From positions 1-60,883 of the forward strand of contig JAPYNU010000064.1 in NCBI GenBank assembly GCA_028283245.1: DNA of 60,883 nt, read 5' to 3'. Of this stretch, positions 18,861 to 29,149 are shown one piece after another. The first letter of the stretch is position 1; each line of letters begins with the position of its first letter. Below the pieces are notes generated by a model. The model was not told where the DNA came from and did no database searches. It saw nothing but the letters and a program-made list of their open reading frames with translations. The translations under genes and the position numbers were made by a program. The DNA comes from Candidatus Aldehydirespirator catecholifindens (lineage in GTDB: Bacteria; Actinomycetota; Acidimicrobiia; Acidimicrobiales; Aldehydirespiratoraceae).

Positions 18861-19109
18861 ATGACCGTTCGAGTGCATCTGAGTTCCAATCTGCGAGGCC
18901 CAACCGACGGTATTGCTGATATCAAAGGCAGCGGCACCACTGTGGGGGCATTGATTGATGATCTCGATCATCAATATCCAGGGCTTGGCGACACTCTGCG
19001 TTCAGGGGTGTCGGTGGTGATCGACGGCTTGCTGATAGCGCATCCGCAATACCATCAGCTGAACGACGGGGTGCAAGTATTCTTTGTGCCTCAAAGCGCT
19101 GGTGGCTAA
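18861..19109 (+). CDS. MoaD/ThiS-family sulfur carrier protein
   Basis: An 82-residue ubiquitin-like protein starting at MTVRVHLSSNLRG and ending in the diagnostic Gly-Gly (QSAGG). The C-terminal Gly is adenylated and thiocarboxylated, and the carrier donates sulfur, for MoaD to the dithiolene of molybdopterin. Its position directly behind a molybdenum hydroxylase suggests it serves that cofactor. The ATG at 18861 is chosen for its AGGG site and fit to the family; an upstream in-frame extension is low-complexity. Its last codons overlap the end of convergent hisC. Confidence 0.8.
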   Translation: MTVRVHLSSNLRGPTDGIADIKGSGTTVGALIDDLDHQYPGLGDTLRSGVSVVIDGLLIAHPQYHQLNDGVQVFFVPQSAGG

Positions 19110-20230
19110 GGCTGAATTGCAGCGGTATCGGTCAATGCTTTCAGGAAGCGGTCGTTTTGGGCTGGGGTGCCCACAGTAACCCGAATTCCGACCCCTGGAA
19201 ATGGGCGGATCACCACACCGCGTTGCTCCAGTCCTCGGCACACTTCGCTGCTGCGGTCACCCAACGCCAGCCACAAGAAATTGCCTTGCGGTTCGGGTAT
19301 GTCCCAGCCGTTGGCAGCCAAAGCTGAGACCATCCGAGACCGCTCGGCTGTGATGGCTGCCACCTGCTGGTGAACCTCAGCGGCGGCATCGTTGCTGAGG
19401 GCGGCTAGGGCTGCAGCCTGGGCAGCGCTGCTCACACTGAAAGGAACGGCGCACTTGTTGACTGCGGCTATCACCTGTTGATGAGCCATCATGTAACCCA
19501 CTCGGAGACCGGCCAAGCCATACGCCTTGGAGAATGTCCTGACGATGCCCACATTGTCGAAACGGGGCAGCAGATCAGTTATAGGGTCGCCTAGCGCAGA
19601 GTCGGCGAACTCTCGATAGGCCTCATCAACCAGCACCAAAACGTCAGCGGGGATGCTTTCAACAAACCGTGCCAGCGCCGAGGTTGTCACGGCTGTGCCA
19701 GTGGGATTGTTGGGGTTAGCTAGCAGCACCAGTTTGGTGCGCGGTGTCACCGCCTCGGCGACTGCATTCAAGTCGAAAGCATGATTGGTGTTCAGCGGCA
19801 CTCGTACCAGGTTGCCAGCCATGAGTTGCACCGCAATTGGGTAAGCCTCAAATGAGATCCAAGGGCTGATCACCTCATCACCGGGGTCAACGAAAGCTTT
19901 GACGAGTTGATACAGCAGAGCCGCCGACCCACTACCGACCGTTACCTGAGATATCGCCAGCCCGAGGCGCTGCGCCAGAGCCTCACGCAGTTCTGTGGCG
20001 CTGTGATCACAGTAGAGGTTGCTGCCTCGACACGCTTGGGCTGCTGCTTCAACCACAACAGCAGGCGGCGGGTAGGGGTTCTCGTTGGAGGTCAGCTTGA
20101 CGACATCGCTGATGCTCTGTTGGCGTGCGGCTTGCTCAGCGGTCTTGCCTGGCTTATAGGCAGGTAAAGCATCAACGGCTGGGCGCACCCGCCCAATCGG
20201 AGTCGAAATGTCGGTGCGCTTAGAAGCCAT
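19106..20230 (-). CDS. hisC: Histidinol-phosphate aminotransferase (or aromatic aminotransferase of the same family)
   Basis: A 374-residue fold-type I PLP aminotransferase. It shows LTSNENPYPPP near the N-terminus, NPNNPTG (about 173), DEAY (about 202) and the Schiff-base Lys in FSKAYGLAGLR (about 233), all standard for HisC. It converts imidazole-acetol phosphate and glutamate to histidinol phosphate. Actinobacterial HisC paralogues can act on phenylalanine or tyrosine, and the gene stands apart from other his genes here, so that alternative remains. It diverges from the ROK regulator gene. Confidence 0.85.
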   Translation of the reverse strand: MASKRTDISTPIGRVRPAVDALPAYKPGKTAEQAARQQSISDVVKLTSNENPYPPPAVVVEAAAQACRGSNLYCDHSATELREALAQRLGLAISQVTVGSGSAALLYQLVKAFVDPGDEVISPWISFEAYPIAVQLMAGNLVRVPLNTNHAFDLNAVAEAVTPRTKLVLLANPNNPTGTAVTTSALARFVESIPADVLVLVDEAYREFADSALGDPITDLLPRFDNVGIVRTFSKAYGLAGLRVGYMMAHQQVIAAVNKCAVPFSVSSAAQAAALAALSNDAAAEVHQQVAAITAERSRMVSALAANGWDIPEPQGNFLWLALGDRSSEVCRGLEQRGVVIRPFPGVGIRVTVGTPAQNDRFLKALTDTAAIQP

Positions 20231-20419: not shown

Positions 20420-20451
20420 TTGACAGGAGATTAGTAAGATAGTATTACTAA
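20420..20451 (+). promoter_or_regulatory. Promoter and palindromic operator of the ROK operon
   Basis: TTGACA (20420-20425) and TATTAC (20443-20448) have a 17-base spacer. A palindrome with arms TTAGTAA (20431-20437) and TTACTAA (20445-20451) covers the spacer and -10. The ATG at 20456 lies eight bases past the -10, so the message is probably leaderless. The operator position fits repression by the first gene product. Confidence 0.75.
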
Positions 20452-20455
20452 CAAT

Positions 20456-21646
20456 ATGGCGGAGAGTTCTGGCTCGGGCTTGCTGCGGTTGCTCAACGGT
20501 CAGCGCATAGTGGATGCCCTGTTCGCTGCCCACCCGTCTCGCATGTCAAGGGCTGGGATAGCACGTGCCACTGGATTGTCTAAGCCGACCGTGTCTGCTC
20601 TGGTCGCCGATTTCGAGTCAGCAGGGCTGTTGCGGGTGTCTGAGGAAAGCCCGAGTTCTGGGACGATCGGACGTCCCGCTGCTCTCTATGAGCTGGTGAC
20701 ATCCGCACGGCATTCGGTGGTGGCCGACATCGGGGCCACCAAAGTGCTCGTCGGCGTATCGGATCTGTTCGGCGAGCTGGTCGCCGAACATGAATTCACT
20801 ACAGGTCCTGATGCTCGAACCACGCTTGATCACCTCGCCGAAACATCAACCGAGTTGCTGCGAGGTATAGCAGGTGGATGTCAGGCAGTGTGTGTGGGAG
20901 TGCCTGGCATCTACAGGCCTGAACGGGACCGTGTTGAGCAGGCTCTCAACCTGCCCGGCTTCGACGACTTAGCGTTGAGTGCTTGGCTTTCCGAGCGGTT
21001 CAAGGCCACCATATACGTTGAGAACGATGTCAACCTGGCCGCTTTAGGTGAGTTGGCCTCGATACGAGACGAACAGACAGACAGTGACTTCGCCGCCATT
21101 TCGGTAGGCACAGGCATCGGCATGGGAATGGTCGTTGGAGGCGATCTATATCGCGGTGGCACGGGATCAGCAGGCGAGCTGGGCTCACTGCTGCTTTCAG
21201 CACCTCAATCGGGCACGACTGCGTTAACGCTTGAAGATGTGGCCTCTGCGCCGTCAATCTGCAAACGGTTCGGACGGGCTATTGAAAAAGGTCTGCATTC
21301 CAAGTTGGACGCAAACGCTGATGTTCCCGAAATTTTCGCTGCCGCTGCAGCTGGTGATGAAGCTGTCTCCTGGGTTCTTGACGAGGCTGCGGCCGCTATG
21401 GCGTTGGCAGTCTCGCACCTTTGCCTGATCGCGGATCCAATCCAGATCATGTTTGGTGGTGGAGTCGGTGCAAACCCAGTGTTTGTGAAGGCCGTTGAGC
21501 GTCGTCTAAGCAAGCTCGTGGCAGCGCCTCCAAAGCTGACTGCTTCAACACTTGGCCGCAAGGCCGCGCTGATCGGTGCTGTGTCAATATCGCTGAGGCT
21601 CATCCACGAATCTCTGGTTGTTGAGATGCTGGGGGATCAGCCATGA
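20456..21646 (+). CDS. ROK-family transcriptional regulator
   Basis: A 396-residue repressor with an N-terminal winged helix (AGIARATGLSKPTVSALV, about 33-50) and a ROK domain (DIGATKVLVG about 91, VENDVNLAALGE about 188, VGTGIGMG about 219). The zinc motif CxCGxxGCxE that normally shapes the sugar site is missing; the region reads SAGELGSLLLSAP. The protein may therefore bind a ligand differently from NagC/Mlc/XylR. It heads a seven-gene operon and probably represses it through the palindrome covering the promoter. It overlaps the next gene by four bases. Confidence 0.88.
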   Translation: MAESSGSGLLRLLNGQRIVDALFAAHPSRMSRAGIARATGLSKPTVSALVADFESAGLLRVSEESPSSGTIGRPAALYELVTSARHSVVADIGATKVLVGVSDLFGELVAEHEFTTGPDARTTLDHLAETSTELLRGIAGGCQAVCVGVPGIYRPERDRVEQALNLPGFDDLALSAWLSERFKATIYVENDVNLAALGELASIRDEQTDSDFAAISVGTGIGMGMVVGGDLYRGGTGSAGELGSLLLSAPQSGTTALTLEDVASAPSICKRFGRAIEKGLHSKLDANADVPEIFAAAAAGDEAVSWVLDEAAAAMALAVSHLCLIADPIQIMFGGGVGANPVFVKAVERRLSKLVAAPPKLTASTLGRKAALIGAVSISLRLIHESLVVEMLGDQP

Positions 21647-22893
21647 TGAGCCTGCCTGAGCAGGTAGCAGCCGCAGTCGACGACGCAGCAATCACCGAAC
21701 TTGTATGTGAAGCTGTGCGCATCCCAAGCGTGACACCCCACGAGAACGCCTTTGCGGATTGGGCAAGCCGACAGATGACCGAGTCGAACTCTTTTGACTC
21801 GGTTGAACTTCACGATTGCGAACCAGGGCGACCCAACGTGTGGGGCACAGTCGGAGGTGGCTCGGGTCAGTCGTTGCTTCTTACTGGCCATATGGACACC
21901 GTGGCCGTTGACGACTGGGCTCAGCATTGGAAAGGAACCGACCGCGAGGATCCTTTCGGAGCGCATGTTATTGATGGCGAGATCTGGGGCCGAGGAGTCG
22001 CCGATCAGAAAGCCGGAATCTGCGCCATAATCGAAGCGCTGAGAGCATTCCACCGAGTCGGGCTGCGCCCGGCTGGGCGTGTGTCGACATTGTTCGTCTG
22101 CGACGAGGAGTCAGGCCAGCCTGGCAGCGGTGTCTCAGCCGGGATGCGAGCCGCTGTTGAGGGCCTTGCTGGACCACGACCCGCAGCAGACTTCGCTGTT
22201 TATACCGAACCGACCACCTCCGCGATCTACACCGCCCAGATGGGTTTCCTCATCGCTGACATCGTCTACACGGGAGTCTCGGCCTACTTCGGTCGCCCTG
22301 AACTGGGTGTTGATGCCCTGAAGGCTGGACATCAACTGCTGGAACACCTGTGGGATCATTCCGACACGCTGAGGGCTTCAGTGCCGACGCATGATCTGCT
22401 GGGACAGGCCTTTCTGTTGGTCACCTCGGTCACCTCGGGGGGCAATATCGCTGTGCCGGGACGCTTTGAGTTGTCGCTGATCCGCAAGATTCTCCCCGTC
22501 GAAAGCCTTGATGAAGCTGCTGAGAGCATCCGCTCGATTGCCACCGATGTCGCTAACAAGCACGGCGTGGAATGTGAAGTGACCTTCAGCGCACCGCGTG
22601 ATCATCGCTTCGGTGGCACCCCCGACGAGATCGCCGCTGAGCATCCAGGTGTGGCTGCGCTGGCTAGTTCAATCGAATCCGTTACCGGTGAGCCAGCGCG
22701 CATTGAAGGTGCCCCCTACTGGTCAGAAAAGCCGTTCCTGCGTGAACTAGGGATCGGCGGCGTGTATTTTGCACCCGGCGACATCTCTAGCTGTCATACT
22801 CCGTTTGAGCACCTCGCCATCGACGAACTGGTGACCGCCACCCGCACTTTGGCGCACTTCATCGCGCAATGGTGCGGGGCCGAAGATCTATAA
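21643..22893 (+). CDS. M20-family metallopeptidase / deacylase (ArgE/DapE type)
   Basis: A 416-residue co-catalytic zinc hydrolase. Visible ligands and motifs are LTGHMDTVA (HxD, about 84), GRGVADQKAG (bridging Asp, about 115), FVCDEESGQ (Glu pair, about 154) and the late His in SCHTPFEH (about 385). M20 enzymes remove acyl or peptide groups from small amino-acid conjugates. Translational coupling to the ROK regulator and the transporter genes downstream suggest it processes the imported compound. The precise substrate cannot be assigned. Confidence 0.85.
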   Translation: MMSLPEQVAAAVDDAAITELVCEAVRIPSVTPHENAFADWASRQMTESNSFDSVELHDCEPGRPNVWGTVGGGSGQSLLLTGHMDTVAVDDWAQHWKGTDREDPFGAHVIDGEIWGRGVADQKAGICAIIEALRAFHRVGLRPAGRVSTLFVCDEESGQPGSGVSAGMRAAVEGLAGPRPAADFAVYTEPTTSAIYTAQMGFLIADIVYTGVSAYFGRPELGVDALKAGHQLLEHLWDHSDTLRASVPTHDLLGQAFLLVTSVTSGGNIAVPGRFELSLIRKILPVESLDEAAESIRSIATDVANKHGVECEVTFSAPRDHRFGGTPDEIAAEHPGVAALASSIESVTGEPARIEGAPYWSEKPFLRELGIGGVYFAPGDISSCHTPFEHLAIDELVTATRTLAHFIAQWCGAEDL

Positions 22894-22914
22894 ACCGGAC
22901 CCATTGGAGGGGCC

Positions 22915-24171
22915 ATGAAAACCAAAGCAAAGATGCCCAAGTGGCTGTTGATTGTTTCGCTGCTAGCAGTGTTCGCCATCGTGGCGGCTGCCTGCGGCGA
23001 CGATGACGACGACGACGCATCTCAAAGTGACACAGACACATCGGAGCCTGCAACAGGTTCTGATACTGAAACGCCGGATCCTGATTCTGCGACCGAAACA
23101 GAAGACGAACCTGCGGGCGGCTCAGGAGGCGCATCTGCGACCGATGAGGGGAGCGAGATGATGCCGGGTGCGCCTGTGACTCAGGGGCCTGGTGGTGAGG
23201 AGGCTGTGCCTGCTAGTGAGATCAGTCTTAGCGTTGAACAGATCGCTGAGGTGCGTGCGGGTGAACATACTGCTGCGCTTTTGTGGCATACCTCAGGAGC
23301 TTTCGTGGAAGCAGTCAGCCGAGGTGCTCGTGATGCTTTCGCTGAGATTGGTGTGGAAGTAATCGCTGAAACCAACGCCGAATTTGATGCTGCGCAGCAA
23401 GCTAATGACGTAGAAACAGTGATGGCACAAAACCCTGACGCGATTATTAGTTTGGCTATTGGTCCTGATTCTGGCGCTGAAGCTTTCCGCCCGGCTGTGG
23501 ATGCTGGTGTGCAGCTAGTGTTTTTGTCGAACGTGCCTCAAGGCTATGTTCATGGTCAAGATTATGTAAGTATCGTTACTGATGATCTTGCTGCTATGGG
23601 TATCACTGCTGCTGATCTGCTCGCAGACGCGATCGGTGGCGAAGGCGAAATCGGATATATCTTCCATGACGCTGCCTATTACGTCACTAACCAGCGTGAT
23701 CAAGCATTCAAATCGTGGATAGAAATCAACTATCCTGATATTGAAATCGTTGCTGAGCAAGGACTCGCTGATCCAGCAGCCGCTGAAGAAATCGCGGCAG
23801 CGATGCTGACACGTAATCCTGGTCTTGATGGTATTTACGCTCCGTGGGCGGCTGGTCCCGCTGACGGAGTACTAGCCGCACTACGTGCTGCTGGTGCTTC
23901 AGATGTGGCGCTAGTGACAATGGACCTTGATACCAACGTGTCACTTGACATGGTCGAAGGCGGCAACGTCAAAGGCATCGCCGCGGACGAGGCCTACAAC
24001 CTTGGACGCACCATGGCCATCGCCAGCGCACACGGGCTACTCGGCCTGCCAGCACCAGCATTCGCAGTAGTACCCGCCGTTGGGGTCACAGCCGACAACA
24101 TCATCGACGGCTACCAACAATCACTAGCCACCCAACCACCACAAGAAATCCTCGACGCCCTCGGAGGCTGA
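22915..24171 (+). CDS. Sugar-type ABC transporter substrate-binding lipoprotein
   Basis: A 418-residue protein. A lipoprotein signal (KMPKWLLIVSLLAVFAIVAA then Cys27) is followed by an acidic, Ser/Thr/Asp-rich tether of about 85 residues. The ligand-binding domain of the ribose/LacI periplasmic type I fold follows (for example FAEIGVEVIAETNAEFDAAQ and the ITADNIIDGY end). It would sit on the outer face of the membrane and deliver ligand to the downstream permease. A GGAGG site precedes the ATG by six bases. A strong hairpin after its stop may raise its transcript level over the permease. Confidence 0.88.
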   Translation: MKTKAKMPKWLLIVSLLAVFAIVAAACGDDDDDDASQSDTDTSEPATGSDTETPDPDSATETEDEPAGGSGGASATDEGSEMMPGAPVTQGPGGEEAVPASEISLSVEQIAEVRAGEHTAALLWHTSGAFVEAVSRGARDAFAEIGVEVIAETNAEFDAAQQANDVETVMAQNPDAIISLAIGPDSGAEAFRPAVDAGVQLVFLSNVPQGYVHGQDYVSIVTDDLAAMGITAADLLADAIGGEGEIGYIFHDAAYYVTNQRDQAFKSWIEINYPDIEIVAEQGLADPAAAEEIAAAMLTRNPGLDGIYAPWAAGPADGVLAALRAAGASDVALVTMDLDTNVSLDMVEGGNVKGIAADEAYNLGRTMAIASAHGLLGLPAPAFAVVPAVGVTADNIIDGYQQSLATQPPQEILDALGG

Positions 24172-24187
24172 TACAAACTTGCCTGAC

Positions 24188-24225
24188 GCACCGGACGCAG
24201 CCCAGAGGTTGGCTGCGTCCGGTGC
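24188..24225 (+). terminator. Perfect intercistronic hairpin between binding protein and permease
   Basis: A perfect 15-bp stem (24188-24202 with 24211-24225) around an eight-base loop, 16 bases after the binding-protein stop. No T run follows. Such hairpins commonly stabilise the upstream message, giving excess binding protein over permease, or act as partial terminators. Confidence 0.75.
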
Positions 24226-24252
24226 CGATAGCAACAACACTGCGAGGAACTC

Positions 24253-25254
24253 ATGACAGACAGCTCTGTTGCACCAACGAGCAAACTGGCGGCTGCAACT
24301 CAGTGGCTTGACCGCAGACGCAGCGACGCTGGTTTGCGCCCTTATGTGGTGTATCTGGCGGCTCTGCTGATCTTCGCGCTGTTTGCGATCATCCTGCGAG
24401 ATGACGGGTTTCTCACCGCCAACAATCTGCTCAACATCGGTCGCCAGGCCACCCCTATCGCTGTGATGGCCGTAGGCATGGCTTTCGCGCTGGCCGCTTC
24501 GGAGATTGATCTGTCGATCGGGTCTGTGTGTGCTTTTTCGTCGCTGGTGGCGGCAGCCGGAGTTGCGAACTACGGCTTCGTTGCTGGTGCAGTGATCGCA
24601 GTGGTTGTGGGTGCCGGGATCGGGCTCCTCAACGGGGTGATCGCCGTCAAGGTGCGCATTCCGTCGTTTCTGGTGACCCTGGGAATGCTCGGGATCGTTA
24701 GCGGCGTAGCCCGCAACATGAACAACCTTCAGTCGCGGCCCATCCGCAACGACAATTTCTTTGCCGTTTTCGGTGGCGGGTCGTTGGGGCCTGTTTCGTC
24801 TCTGCTGATCTGGACCGTGATAGTGGGCCTGATCGGGCATCTTGTGCTGCACCAGTTGCGCTGGGGACGTCATGTGCTGTCGGTTGGTGCTGACCGCTCC
24901 GCAGCTGCGGCGCTCGGCATCAACACCGACCGTATTCGCATCACCGCACTAATGGCCAGCGCTGCGGCGGCTTCGTTCGCGGGTGTGCTGCTCGCTGGCC
25001 GGCTCGCTATCGGACGTCACGACCTGGGCGAGAACCTGCTGCTCACGGTGATCGCAGCGGTAGTCATCGGCGGCACCAACCTGTTCGGCGGTCGTGCCTC
25101 GGTAGCCGGGGCCATTGTCGGGTCGGTGGTGATGGCCATGCTCAACAACGGTCTCATCCTCATGGGCCTGCGGGTCTCGGACCAGCTGATAGCCCGTGGT
25201 GCGATCATCATTTTGGCGGTAGCGCTAAGCATGAGAGAGCAAAAGGAGACCTGA
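24253..25254 (+). CDS. Sugar-type ABC transporter permease (RbsC family)
   Basis: A 333-residue protein with about nine hydrophobic segments and the BPD_transp_2 family pattern: AVGMAFALAASEIDLSIGS (about 75-93), a GANxxAAxxLGI-like VGADRSAAAALGINTDRIR (about 214) and VVIGGTNLFGGRAS (about 272). It probably works as a homodimer with the single-domain ATPase encoded two genes downstream. A GAGGAAC site lies just before the ATG. Confidence 0.9.
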   Translation: MTDSSVAPTSKLAAATQWLDRRRSDAGLRPYVVYLAALLIFALFAIILRDDGFLTANNLLNIGRQATPIAVMAVGMAFALAASEIDLSIGSVCAFSSLVAAAGVANYGFVAGAVIAVVVGAGIGLLNGVIAVKVRIPSFLVTLGMLGIVSGVARNMNNLQSRPIRNDNFFAVFGGGSLGPVSSLLIWTVIVGLIGHLVLHQLRWGRHVLSVGADRSAAAALGINTDRIRITALMASAAAASFAGVLLAGRLAIGRHDLGENLLLTVIAAVVIGGTNLFGGRASVAGAIVGSVVMAMLNNGLILMGLRVSDQLIARGAIIILAVALSMREQKET

Positions 25255-25255
25255 C

Positions 25256-26464
25256 GTGTTCCTGCAGACCTTGCTGAGGCGCAACCCCCGGTTCGTGGAA
25301 GCCGCAGTCGAACTGCATCAAGCGGGCCGTATCCCGGCCAACAGTTGCGTTCTGGACCTAGACGCCATTCAAGTGAACACTGTCGGGTTGTGTGGTGAGG
25401 CCCATCGTCTGGGACTCAGCGTTTATGCCATGACCAAGCAGATCGGACGGGCACCTTCGGCGCTGGCGGCCATGACCTTTGGCGGCGTTGACGGATTCGT
25501 GGCTGTGGACATGCCTTGCGCACGGCCTGTTGTGAGCAACGGCCACAACCTCGGCCATCTCGGCCATTTGGTGCAAGTGCCGCGTGCCGAAGCCGCCGAA
25601 GCCGCCGAAATGGCACCCGACTATTGGACGATCTTCTCTGAGAACAAGGCCGCGGAGGCTGCAGCTGCCGCACACCGAGCCGGGCGCGTTCAGCGGTTGT
25701 TGGTGCGCGTATTCGCTGAGGGAGACACCTTCTACCCCGGCCATGAAGGTGGCATAGCGCTGACTGATCTGCCTGCCATGATCAACCACATCCATCAGCT
25801 CGAAGGTGTCGAATTCGCTGGTCTAACCACCTTCCCGGCATTGCTGTTTGACTCCGACTCTGGCGGTGCCCGCCTCACTCCCAACGTGGCGACGCTGACC
25901 CGAGCCGCGGAGATAGCCCGCCAACACTCTGCCTGCCCTGCGACGCTGGCGATCAACACTCCAGGCACCACATCGACCGAGGTTCTCTCCATGCTGGCCG
26001 AAGCAGGTGCCACTCAGGTTGAGCCTGGACACGGACTCACCGGCACGACACCCCTTCACGCAGTACGGGAGCTACCCGAACAGCCAGCGGTGCTCTACCT
26101 GAGCGAAGTGGCTCACATCCATCAAGGCGTGCCGCTCTGCTTCGGAGGGGGGCTCTACATTGACCCAGTGTTCGGCGACTACCAGGTTCACGCCGTCGTA
26201 GCGCACGACCCATCAGAAATCGCAACGACACCTGTTCCAGTGGATATGCCCAATCCTGCAGCCATCGACTACTACGCCCAACTCCACCCAGACTCGCAGC
26301 GCACCGTGGCAGAAGGTGCCACCGTGATCTTCGGATTCCGAGTCCAGGCGTTCGTCACTAGGACATTCGTGGTGGGTCTCAGTGGCGTATCAAAAGGCAG
26401 AGCACAAGTTGCAGGCATATGCAACGGTTTCGGCGACGAGGTGGATTTCGGAGGGTCACAGTGA
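25256..26464 (+). CDS. YhfX-like PLP-dependent enzyme (alanine racemase / D-threonine aldolase fold)
   Basis: A 402-residue fold-type III PLP protein. SCVLDLDAIQVNTVGL is followed by YAMTKQIGRAP, whose Lys (about 61) is the likely Schiff-base residue, and GHGLTGTTPLHA lies near 260. The pattern matches YhfX-type proteins, which resemble the N-terminal barrel of alanine racemase without the usual C-terminal domain. The chemistry is unestablished: racemisation or a retro-aldol cleavage of an amino acid are possibilities. The GTG start, with AAGGAG upstream, is one base after the permease stop. Its position between permease and ATPase genes makes it an integral part of the pathway. Confidence 0.75.
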   Translation: MFLQTLLRRNPRFVEAAVELHQAGRIPANSCVLDLDAIQVNTVGLCGEAHRLGLSVYAMTKQIGRAPSALAAMTFGGVDGFVAVDMPCARPVVSNGHNLGHLGHLVQVPRAEAAEAAEMAPDYWTIFSENKAAEAAAAAHRAGRVQRLLVRVFAEGDTFYPGHEGGIALTDLPAMINHIHQLEGVEFAGLTTFPALLFDSDSGGARLTPNVATLTRAAEIARQHSACPATLAINTPGTTSTEVLSMLAEAGATQVEPGHGLTGTTPLHAVRELPEQPAVLYLSEVAHIHQGVPLCFGGGLYIDPVFGDYQVHAVVAHDPSEIATTPVPVDMPNPAAIDYYAQLHPDSQRTVAEGATVIFGFRVQAFVTRTFVVGLSGVSKGRAQVAGICNGFGDEVDFGGSQ

Positions 26465-27240
26465 CGAGCGTCGCTAGCACGGTTGCGCTTGAAGTTGAAG
26501 GCTTGTGCAAGTCGTTCAAGGCGGTGCGGGCACTTGATCAGGTGGCGTTGCGCCTTGAATATGGTCGGGTTACAGCCCTGCTAGGCGACAACGGCGCAGG
26601 CAAGTCCACGCTGGTCAAATGCATCTCTGGTGTCTACACCCCCGACTCCGGCGTGATCAAAGTTGATGGGGCTGCACAAACTATCGCTTCGCCCGAGGCT
26701 GCCCGGTCGCTGGGCATTGAGACCGTGCATCAGACTCTTGCCGTTATTGATCCTCTGGATGTGGTTGAGAACTTATTCCTCAACCGTGAACTCACAAGAG
26801 GCGGACGGTTGGGCACCTGGCTTGGCGTTCTCGACAAGAAGCGGATGCGCACGGAGTCCAAGGAGATCTTGGGGCGTCTTGAGATTCGCATCCCTTCGTT
26901 GCGCCGCTCGATGAGCGCACTGTCGGGCGGGCAGCGTCAAGCAGTGGCGATCGGTCGTGCGGCCGCTTGGGGCCAGCAGATCGTTCTGCTTGATGAGCCC
27001 GCAGCAGCGCTCGGAGTGGAGCAGGCGGCACGCGTGCTTGACCTGATCCGCAACCTGCGTGATGCGGGCGTGGCTGTGCTGCTGATAACTCACAACATGG
27101 AGAGAGTCACCGATGTCTGCGACAGAGCCGTGGTTCTGCATCAGGGACGCAAAGCTGCGGAAGTAGATGTAAGTGAGGTCACCAAAGACGATCTCGTGGC
27201 TTATATCACCGGCGCCCGAACCGGCAACAACGACCCATGA
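26461..27240 (+). CDS. Sugar-type ABC transporter ATP-binding protein, single domain
   Basis: From GTG 26461 (overlapping the previous stop as GTGA, with GGAGGG upstream) this is 259 residues. Walker A GDNGAGKST (about 43), signature LSGGQRQAV (about 144), Walker B IVLLDEP (about 170) and switch His LITHN (about 204) are all intact. The sequence is of the RbsA/XylG type but has only one nucleotide-binding domain, so a homodimer is expected. It overlaps the kinase gene by four bases. Confidence 0.92.
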   Translation: MTSVASTVALEVEGLCKSFKAVRALDQVALRLEYGRVTALLGDNGAGKSTLVKCISGVYTPDSGVIKVDGAAQTIASPEAARSLGIETVHQTLAVIDPLDVVENLFLNRELTRGGRLGTWLGVLDKKRMRTESKEILGRLEIRIPSLRRSMSALSGGQRQAVAIGRAAAWGQQIVLLDEPAAALGVEQAARVLDLIRNLRDAGVAVLLITHNMERVTDVCDRAVVLHQGRKAAEVDVSEVTKDDLVAYITGARTGNNDP

Positions 27241-28016
27241 GCGGCGTGTGCCGCAGCCAACTCGGCATAGACGTGGGCGGCACCAGCATCAAAGGCGCAG
27301 TCGTTGATCTAAGCACGGGAGAGCCGGTCGGTGGCATCTATTCGGAGCTGACACCAGCGGCTGCCACACCCGATGATGTCGCAGCCGCTATTAGCCGCAT
27401 CGCTTCGGCTGCTAGGTGGTCAAGTCGTGTCGGAGTGGCTTTGCCGGGTGTCATTGACGGACCTTCGCTGCGCCATGCCCCCAATCTTTCGGCAGAATGG
27501 GCCACAGAGAATGCTTTAGAAGGTTTGAGCGTGTTAGCTGGCACTGAAACGGTATTCATCAACGACGCAGATGCAGCCGGATTAGCGGAGTTGACCTACG
27601 GCGATACTGGAATCGACAGCAACGGCCTCACCATCGTGCTTACTTTCGGAACTGGAATCGGGAGTGCTTTGCTGCACAACGGCGAACTCATAGCCAACTC
27701 CGAACTAGGAGGCCTTATCGGAAGCGAGGGTCGCTTCGAAGAGATCGCATCGGGCAGGAACATCTCTGTGGAGAAACTCACTCCCAACGATTGGGCACGC
27801 CGGGCGCAGCCTTTCTTTGATGAGATCGAAGCGATACTCAACCCTTCACGCTGGGTGGTTGGTGGCGGGCTCAGCGAGGACTTCGACCGTTTCGCTTCCC
27901 AGCTCAAACTGTCAAATCCCATCTCAGTGGCTCACCTCGGCATCCATGCGGGCATCGTTGGTGCCGCCGTTGCCGCTCGTGAGCGTCACCTGACAGCGCT
28001 TGAGTCAGTCTCCTAA
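27237..28016 (+). CDS. ROK-family sugar kinase (polyphosphate glucokinase-like)
   Basis: A 259-residue kinase with the phosphate-binding GIDVGGTSIKG at the N-terminus, the catalytic Asp in INDADAAGLAE (about 104) and LTFGTGIGSALL (about 131). The zinc motif is absent, as in PPGK-type and some short ROK kinases. As last gene of the operon it would phosphorylate the sugar part of the imported compound. Glucose as substrate with ATP or polyphosphate is possible but, from context, an amino sugar or its acyl derivative is equally plausible. Confidence 0.82.
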   Translation: MSGVCRSQLGIDVGGTSIKGAVVDLSTGEPVGGIYSELTPAAATPDDVAAAISRIASAARWSSRVGVALPGVIDGPSLRHAPNLSAEWATENALEGLSVLAGTETVFINDADAAGLAELTYGDTGIDSNGLTIVLTFGTGIGSALLHNGELIANSELGGLIGSEGRFEEIASGRNISVEKLTPNDWARRAQPFFDEIEAILNPSRWVVGGGLSEDFDRFASQLKLSNPISVAHLGIHAGIVGAAVAARERHLTALESVS

Positions 28017-28099: not shown

Positions 28100-29149
28100 A
28101 TGTTGATCAAATCGGTACCACGCTCACGCTCACGCCAGATTGCGATTGCTGCCATAACTCTTGTCATCATGCTATTCACAACGCATGCTGCACCAGTTCG
28201 CGCTACTCAGACAGATACAGAGCCGACATTAGCTCAAACCGCCAACAAATCGTATGAGGATTTTATTGATGCTGTATGGGAGTTCGAATCAGATATTTCT
28301 CCATCCAAGCAAGAATACTACAATTCCAACTGGAACACACCCGTAGCTAGCTATCCAAAAGTCGATTATCCAGGACGTGTAGTAAGAGATGAAAACGGTG
28401 ACCCCATAATAGAGCAACACCTTACAATCAAAGAACTATTCAAAACTCTGGGGATCAGTGAATATTACTCTCCCGATGATGCTCATCCCAACTGGCAACT
28501 AATCCAATCTAATGTTGTCAACTATCTTGGCTTCGTCGGTTTCCAGTTTCAAGAGTCTGACTTAGTGGACACCGGCTATTACATTTTTCCAGGGATTACT
28601 ATAGGCGACAAGTCATATCCGACACATTATGTGGATCTTCCAAATTACACGTGGGCTAATGGCAGGCGGTCCATTTTGGTCTATCCGCCGGTAGTTGAAC
28701 ATCCCACACTTGCTACCGATACGGTGCAGTATTTTGACTATTATTTTACTGGCAAAGATGGCATTAGCAGCTACCATGATTTTACACAGCCCGATAAACA
28801 CATTCTTGTGATTAAAGCTCATTTTGCTAATAAATACGCAGGGATTGTGTCGGGATTGAACGAGCTAGGCAAGAACCTCTCAGATTATCGCGGCACATCC
28901 GTTTACTGGAGCCAGTTGGATCCTTCCGTTGATCCACCACCAGGCAACCGCCCCGACAAAGTGGAGATCACCTTATCAGGTCTACTAGCTGGCGCACACC
29001 TGCGTGGCGCGGCAGGGGTGATTGAACTTTTGGTCGATCACAAGAACCCTGCCGATGAGAACGGCACTTACATTTTGCAGTATGTGCAGGACTATGCAGA
29101 CTACGAAACACCTTTCCCGAGCGTCAGCATCAATGTTGAGGTGTCGTAG
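28100..29149 (+). CDS. Secreted protein of unknown function, AT-rich
   Basis: A 349-residue protein with a classical signal peptide (basic MLIKSVPRSRSRQ, hydrophobic IAIAAITLVIMLF, cleavage near AAPVRA). The mature part begins SYEDFIDAVWEFESD and includes many aromatic residues (NYLGFVGFQF, DYYFTGKDGISSYHDF). I do not recognise a family. The E-F-E-S motif resembles the start of some lysozyme-like folds, but no catalytic set can be shown. Base composition is clearly AT-richer than its neighbours, with codons such as ATA, AAT and TTA, which suggests recent acquisition. It stands alone, 83 bases after the kinase gene and before a strong hairpin. Confidence 0.7.
   Translation: MLIKSVPRSRSRQIAIAAITLVIMLFTTHAAPVRATQTDTEPTLAQTANKSYEDFIDAVWEFESDISPSKQEYYNSNWNTPVASYPKVDYPGRVVRDENGDPIIEQHLTIKELFKTLGISEYYSPDDAHPNWQLIQSNVVNYLGFVGFQFQESDLVDTGYYIFPGITIGDKSYPTHYVDLPNYTWANGRRSILVYPPVVEHPTLATDTVQYFDYYFTGKDGISSYHDFTQPDKHILVIKAHFANKYAGIVSGLNELGKNLSDYRGTSVYWSQLDPSVDPPPGNRPDKVEITLSGLLAGAHLRGAAGVIELLVDHKNPADENGTYILQYVQDYADYETPFPSVSINVEVS

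Follow-up and report, generated by a model that had tools for sequence, protein, structure and literature searches.

No reaction is assigned in the literature we searched to YhfX, an enzyme of solved structure that is conserved and found even in E. coli, and no functional report was found on YhfX, the yhf operon, or the gene combination described here. An operon of Candidatus Aldehydirespirator catecholifindens, contained in the 60,883-nucleotide stretch of DNA that we analysed (the window), encodes a YhfX-like protein together with a sugar-type importer, a hydrolase, and a sugar kinase, raising the question of what substrate these proteins could share, and where along its path YhfX might act. 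Seven genes on the forward strand form one co-directional run (20456-28016): a ROK-family transcriptional regulator (20456-21646; PF00480 plus a winged HTH), an ArgE/DapE-like M20 metallohydrolase that we propose to be an N-deacylase (21643-22893; PF01546), a lipoprotein substrate-binding protein of the CUT2 or Peripla_BP_4 type (22915-24171; PF13407), an AraH/RbsC-like CUT2-type ABC permease (24253-25254; PF02653), the YhfX-like fold-type III PLP enzyme (25256-26464; GTG start; PF01168 and PF21279), a single-domain ABC ATPase (26461-27240; GTG start; PF00005), and a ROK sugar kinase of the polyphosphate/ATP glucokinase type, a proposed hexosamine kinase (27237-28016; PF00480). Overlaps of 4 bases join the regulator to the M20 gene, YhfX to the ATPase gene (as also in relatives), and the ATPase to the kinase gene; a single base separates permease and YhfX, and the binding-protein gene is flanked by gaps of 21 and 81 bases. 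The gene calls with their three overlaps, and the domain matches, bear out a preliminary description of this locus as seven packed genes for a sugar-type importer, a hydrolase, a PLP enzyme, and a sugar kinase. A hisC-like aminotransferase gene (19106-20230) is divergent from the operon, and directly behind the operon lies a gene (28100-29149) for a secreted-looking protein of 349 aa with no Pfam or NCBIfam match.

Upstream of the regulator gene (20420-20455, forward strand), a TTGACA-like -35 element at about 20420 is followed by the palindrome TTAGTAA-N7-TTACTAA (20431-20451), which ends 4 bases 5' of the ATG. We found no Shine-Dalgarno sequence near the ATG in this region, so the operon message is probably leaderless, and the putative operator probably sits on its promoter. 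The window palindrome is short by itself; a related element (TTTGTAAG..TTACTAAC / TTTGTAAGGTAATGTTACTAACAATATG) is found at the same site before the regulator start in Acidimicrobiia relatives, and palindromes also precede the regulator gene in a second Acidimicrobiia clade (GTTTGTTAG-N5-CTTACAAAC) and in Alphaproteobacteria (CTTTAGTTCG-N9-CGAACTAAAG). The earlier report of a palindrome over the operon start holds up. The regulator, with its HTH and ROK domain, has the domains that define a ROK repressor, and would repress its own operon through this palindrome. It lacks the ROK zinc motif, as had been noted before; however, the motif is also absent from the relatives' regulators and ROK kinases that we compared and, by sequence, from the operon's own kinase. 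Since these proteins share the loss, it is not a special feature of the window regulator, and we dropped the earlier suggestion that it hints at a non-standard ligand.

The importer resembles CUT2 sugar importers such as RbsABC and AraFGH in its Peripla_BP_4 binding protein and BPD_transp_2 permease, but its ATPase is a single, unduplicated domain of 259 aa, whereas the usual form is a fused pair of about 500 aa. CUT2 importers usually take up monosaccharides. The best NCBIfam match of the ROK kinase is polyphosphate glucose phosphotransferase (NF045942), at 226.6 bits and under the curated cut-off of 250, and it matches PDB 1woq with an E value of 1.1e-40; the kinase thus appears related to polyphosphate/ATP glucokinases, at a level of similarity from which its sugar specificity cannot be named.

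A single scan of species genomes identified 79 loci with a YhfX relative, onto which we mapped the seven window proteins and called genes; the counts of gene swaps below refer to the 59 loci having both flanks and are lower bounds, as gene calling missed some genes. Conservation of the gene order was the point on which the preliminary description could be checked, and the order is indeed found in distantly related bacteria: ROK regulator, M20, CUT2-type importer, YhfX, and a single ATPase occur in many Acidimicrobiia and Alphaproteobacteria, with a variant in Actinomycetes. The Acidimicrobiia architecture is ROK regulator, M20, binding protein, permease, YhfX, ATPase, sometimes the kinase, and NagB. 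Alphaproteobacteria, including annotated plasmid examples in Ruegeria sp. TM1040, Aminobacter, and Nitratireductor, have this order without the kinase, with one or two binding proteins and an occasional SIS protein; kinase and deaminase are both absent from many of these operons. In Actinomycetes, a divergent ROK regulator is followed by binding protein, phosphotriesterase-family protein, ROK kinase, permease, YhfX, ATPase, and sometimes a SIS gene. The permease-YhfX-ATPase order is kept in nearly all loci. The operon is real and common to distant bacteria, and we found no description of it in the literature searched. Clusters 15, 17, 18, and 25 of the neighbourhood scan are large clusters of antisense ORFs that look like a GC-bias artefact, and were set aside.

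The M20 protein has the five metal ligands and catalytic Glu of its family, in the motifs GHMDT, ADQK, DEES, EPT, and CHTP, with the ligand residues conserved in seven diverse orthologs; family membership and these ligands are what lead us to predict an amide hydrolase. Its lid motif is SAYFGRPELG, with SAY where A-H is usual, and the Tyr is kept in 7/7 orthologs compared. M20 and Amidohydro_3 enzymes mostly act on N-acyl amino acids. M20 and YhfX travel together: of 296 evenly sampled Acidimicrobiia genomes, 18 have full-length YhfX and 17 have an M20 ortholog (≥59% identity), all 17 being among these 18 (Fisher p about 1e-26, uncorrected for kinship; the gene adjacency covers three families), and in the eighteenth the contig begins 397 bases before YhfX. 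In a plasmid collection, 12/12 records with an M20 ortholog also carry YhfX. M20 is encoded in 38/59 loci and a YhfV-like phosphotriesterase-family protein in 18/59, with both together in none; the best model for the latter is NF007373 (E. coli YhfV-type proteins), and because its scores are below the curated cut-off the YhfV-like name is meant at family level only. Enzymes of this family can be N-deacylases, since its member PTER hydrolyses N-acetyltaurine (PMC11374699). A third hydrolase type, Amidohydro_3, is encoded at a Planosporangium locus beside two YhfX genes and genes for SIS and ROK proteins.

A similar swap is seen among candidate glucosamine-6-phosphate deaminases. NagB is encoded in 23/59 loci and a SIS-type NagB-II in 17/59, never together, and in 16/18 of the YhfX-bearing Acidimicrobiia genomes a same-strand NagB gene follows YhfX at a distance of about 1-2 kb. 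The linked NagB proteins score 264-268 bits with NF001684 and the SIS NagB-II proteins 174-255 bits with NF046059, all below the curated cut-offs, so these names too are family-level; the best characterised PDB relative of NagB-II is 8eol. Mutually exclusive, unrelated families in one slot look like non-orthologous replacement of one function. On the YhfX tree the deaminase state needs 14 changes and the hydrolase type 4, counts that we do not use as proof because this tree was built quickly and its branches are long.

The window YhfX-like protein belongs to the YhfX family, matching PF21279 with 75.5 bits (gathering 27) and PF01168 (Ala_racemase_N) with 49.7 bits (24.1), and has 38% identity over its full length to E. 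coli YhfX (PDB 4kbx; E 1.8e-74, structural Z 49.6; AlphaFold model pLDDT 91.5). The nearest folds after 4kbx are D-threonine aldolase, beta-hydroxyaspartate aldolase, and D-hydroxyaspartate dehydratase (Z 26-29), followed by decarboxylases, alanine racemases, and D-serine dehydratase (Z 24-26), the differences in Z being small overall. A profile alignment with alanine racemase (94.9% probability) pairs K61 with the PLP lysine, E256 with Arg219, and F296 with Tyr265. Across 39 diverse members E256 never varies, and at position 296 F is found 29 times, Y 7 times, and L 3 times. E284, H287, D338, Q364, and R369 are invariant as well. The EPG motif is reminiscent of the Glu that binds the pyridine in group IV decarboxylases. 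YhfX thus shares fold type III and the PLP lysine with alanine racemase, D-threonine aldolase, and D-serine dehydratase, but the second base (Tyr265) and the pyridine ligand (Arg219) of alanine racemase are replaced by Phe and Glu, and PF00842 (Ala_racemase_C) has no match at E 10; we rejected alanine racemase on these grounds. D-threonine aldolase and D-serine dehydratase were likewise rejected, as PF14031 is not matched even at E 10 and the 39 members have no H-x-C/D metal motif in common, the single HPD triplet not being conserved; the C-terminal profile match to D-serine dehydratase is too weak for residue placement. With these residues, domains, and the metal motif missing, YhfX cannot be classed as a standard racemase or as a metal-dependent aldolase or dehydratase of the standard kind, and its reaction cannot be read off the sequence.

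The operon partners are the first strong pathway context for the YhfX family; linkage to deaminases of two unrelated families and two interchangeable hydrolases yields a short, testable list of substrates. From gene content, order, conservation, swaps, and co-occurrence, all directly observed, we infer the substrate, the repression, and each reaction, and lean with moderate confidence toward a catabolic operon, induced by its substrate, for a hexosamine of the glucosamine type that is blocked, probably by N-acylation. The CUT2-type importer would bring the N-substituted hexosamine into the cell, and the M20 enzyme, or the YhfV-like enzyme in Actinomycetes, would take off the blocking group to leave a free amine on which YhfX, with its PLP, would act. 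The ROK kinase would form the 6-phosphate, and NagB or NagB-II would convert glucosamine-6-phosphate to fructose-6-phosphate and ammonia. Our preferred guess, weakly held, is that YhfX turns the amino sugar, free or phosphorylated, into the glucosamine form accepted by the deaminase, for example by C2 epimerisation, which would account for the position of an amine-specific PLP enzyme after a deacylase and before a stereospecific deaminase. That YhfX represents a new fold-type III PLP class whose direct substrate is a free or phosphorylated amino sugar (such as a metal-independent C2 epimerase), within an undescribed deblock-first route for N-acyl hexosamines, we regard as doubtful; if true, such catabolism would be common to Acidimicrobiia, Alphaproteobacteria, and Actinomycetes. 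Nag-type operons (NagK with NagB or NagB-II) resemble most of the relatives in the set of ROK regulator, ROK kinase, and deaminase; they differ in that here there is no NagA deacetylase, deblocking by the M20 or YhfV-like enzyme would come before phosphorylation, there is an extra PLP enzyme, and the deaminase is missing from the window's own operon. Against this explanation we count the habit of the M20 family for N-acyl amino acids, the sub-cut-off deaminase scores, the many alphaproteobacterial operons without kinase and deaminase, the lack of a deaminase gene in the window operon and behind the kinase of its nearest relative, and the E. coli-type yhf operons, where YhfX has other partners.

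The preliminary description had proposed that an amide of an amino sugar and an amino acid is imported and split by the M20 enzyme, that YhfX racemises or degrades the (D-)amino acid, and that the kinase and deaminase take the sugar. The linked glucosamine-6-phosphate deaminases strengthen its amino-sugar theme and would account for the sugar half, and the M20 and Amidohydro_3 preference for N-acyl amino acids agrees with the other half, as do the amino-acid enzymes among the fold neighbours of YhfX (D-threonine aldolase, beta-hydroxyaspartate aldolase, D-hydroxyaspartate dehydratase, and alanine racemase). However, the conjugate itself gained no support, as no conserved amino-acid catabolic gene, nor anything else conserved nearby, handles an amino acid, and CUT2 importers usually serve monosaccharides; nor did racemisation or cleavage of an amino acid by YhfX, in which the equivalent of Tyr265 is Phe in 29/39 members and that of Arg219 is Glu in 39/39. 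We consider the amide unlikely. An N-acyl 2-amino sugar acid, such as N-acetylglucosaminate, would give the M20 enzyme the N-acyl alpha-amino acid that its family prefers, and YhfX could then dehydrate or cleave the product in the manner of its D-threonine aldolase relatives, the nearest characterised folds working on beta-hydroxy-alpha-amino acids; NagB and SIS proteins would serve only part of a mixed diet, in keeping with the frequent absence of kinase and deaminase in Alphaproteobacteria. The lack of PF14031 (at E 10) and of the conserved metal motif in YhfX makes this quite improbable, as does the lack of linked genes for a keto-deoxy-sugar acid, and the recurrent deaminase linkage would be left unexplained.

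A reading in which the operon takes up fructosamine or a similar Amadori-type sugar-amine, the kinase forms a 6-phosphate, and the SIS protein acts as an FrlB-type deglycase draws on the existence of deglycases in the SIS family and on the common pairing of a ROK kinase with a SIS protein. Yet the SIS proteins match NagB-II (174-255 bits) and no fructoselysine deglycase model at E 0.001, the swap with NagB-I has no deglycase counterpart, and Amadori pathways need neither an amidohydrolase nor a PLP enzyme; we think this highly improbable.

Returning to the blocked hexosamine, the end of the pathway is not in the window operon, as a PF01182 (NagB) profile search of the window genome's assembly (93% complete) gave no match, with a model that detects 9/14 controls, and the nearest relative (L021) has no NagB behind its kinase. 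The window operon ends at the kinase, whereas the deaminase is in the operon in most relatives. A stand-alone NagB-II/GlmS-isomerase-like SIS gene is present on another contig of the window genome (G000:C46:5212-6270; L157), and may stand in for the missing deaminase; the 6-phosphate would be deaminated by this NagB-II-like protein, or be used for cell-wall synthesis. This SIS gene is divergent from a glycerol-dehydrogenase-like gene, which in turn is followed by an importer-like set and a large glycoside hydrolase-like ORF, and its surroundings are possibly a second amino-sugar or glycoside locus.

The E. coli yhf operon shares the YhfX family with the window operon, and YhfV recurs as a YhfX partner in Actinomycete operons, but it includes YhfS, YhfT, YhfU, YhfW, and a PRD protein, and is without an ABC importer, ROK kinase, or M20; in operons of the E. 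coli type, the partners of YhfX are YhfS, T, U, V, and W, with no sugar kinase or deaminase seen. The linkage of YhfX to deaminases and interchangeable hydrolases suggests that E. coli YhfV and YhfX could also act sequentially on a blocked amine. The Planosporangium locus (L125:3377-10619) has CUT1-type permeases and an ATPase, Amidohydro_3, a ribulose-phosphate 3-epimerase-like gene, SIS, a ROK protein, and two tandem YhfX, and its epimerase-like gene could point to an amino sugar whose C3 is inverted. An Actinomycete cluster (L141:7565-11884) of SIS, YhfX, YhfW-like, and ribulose-phosphate 3-epimerase-like genes unites E. coli-type yhf genes with a SIS gene.
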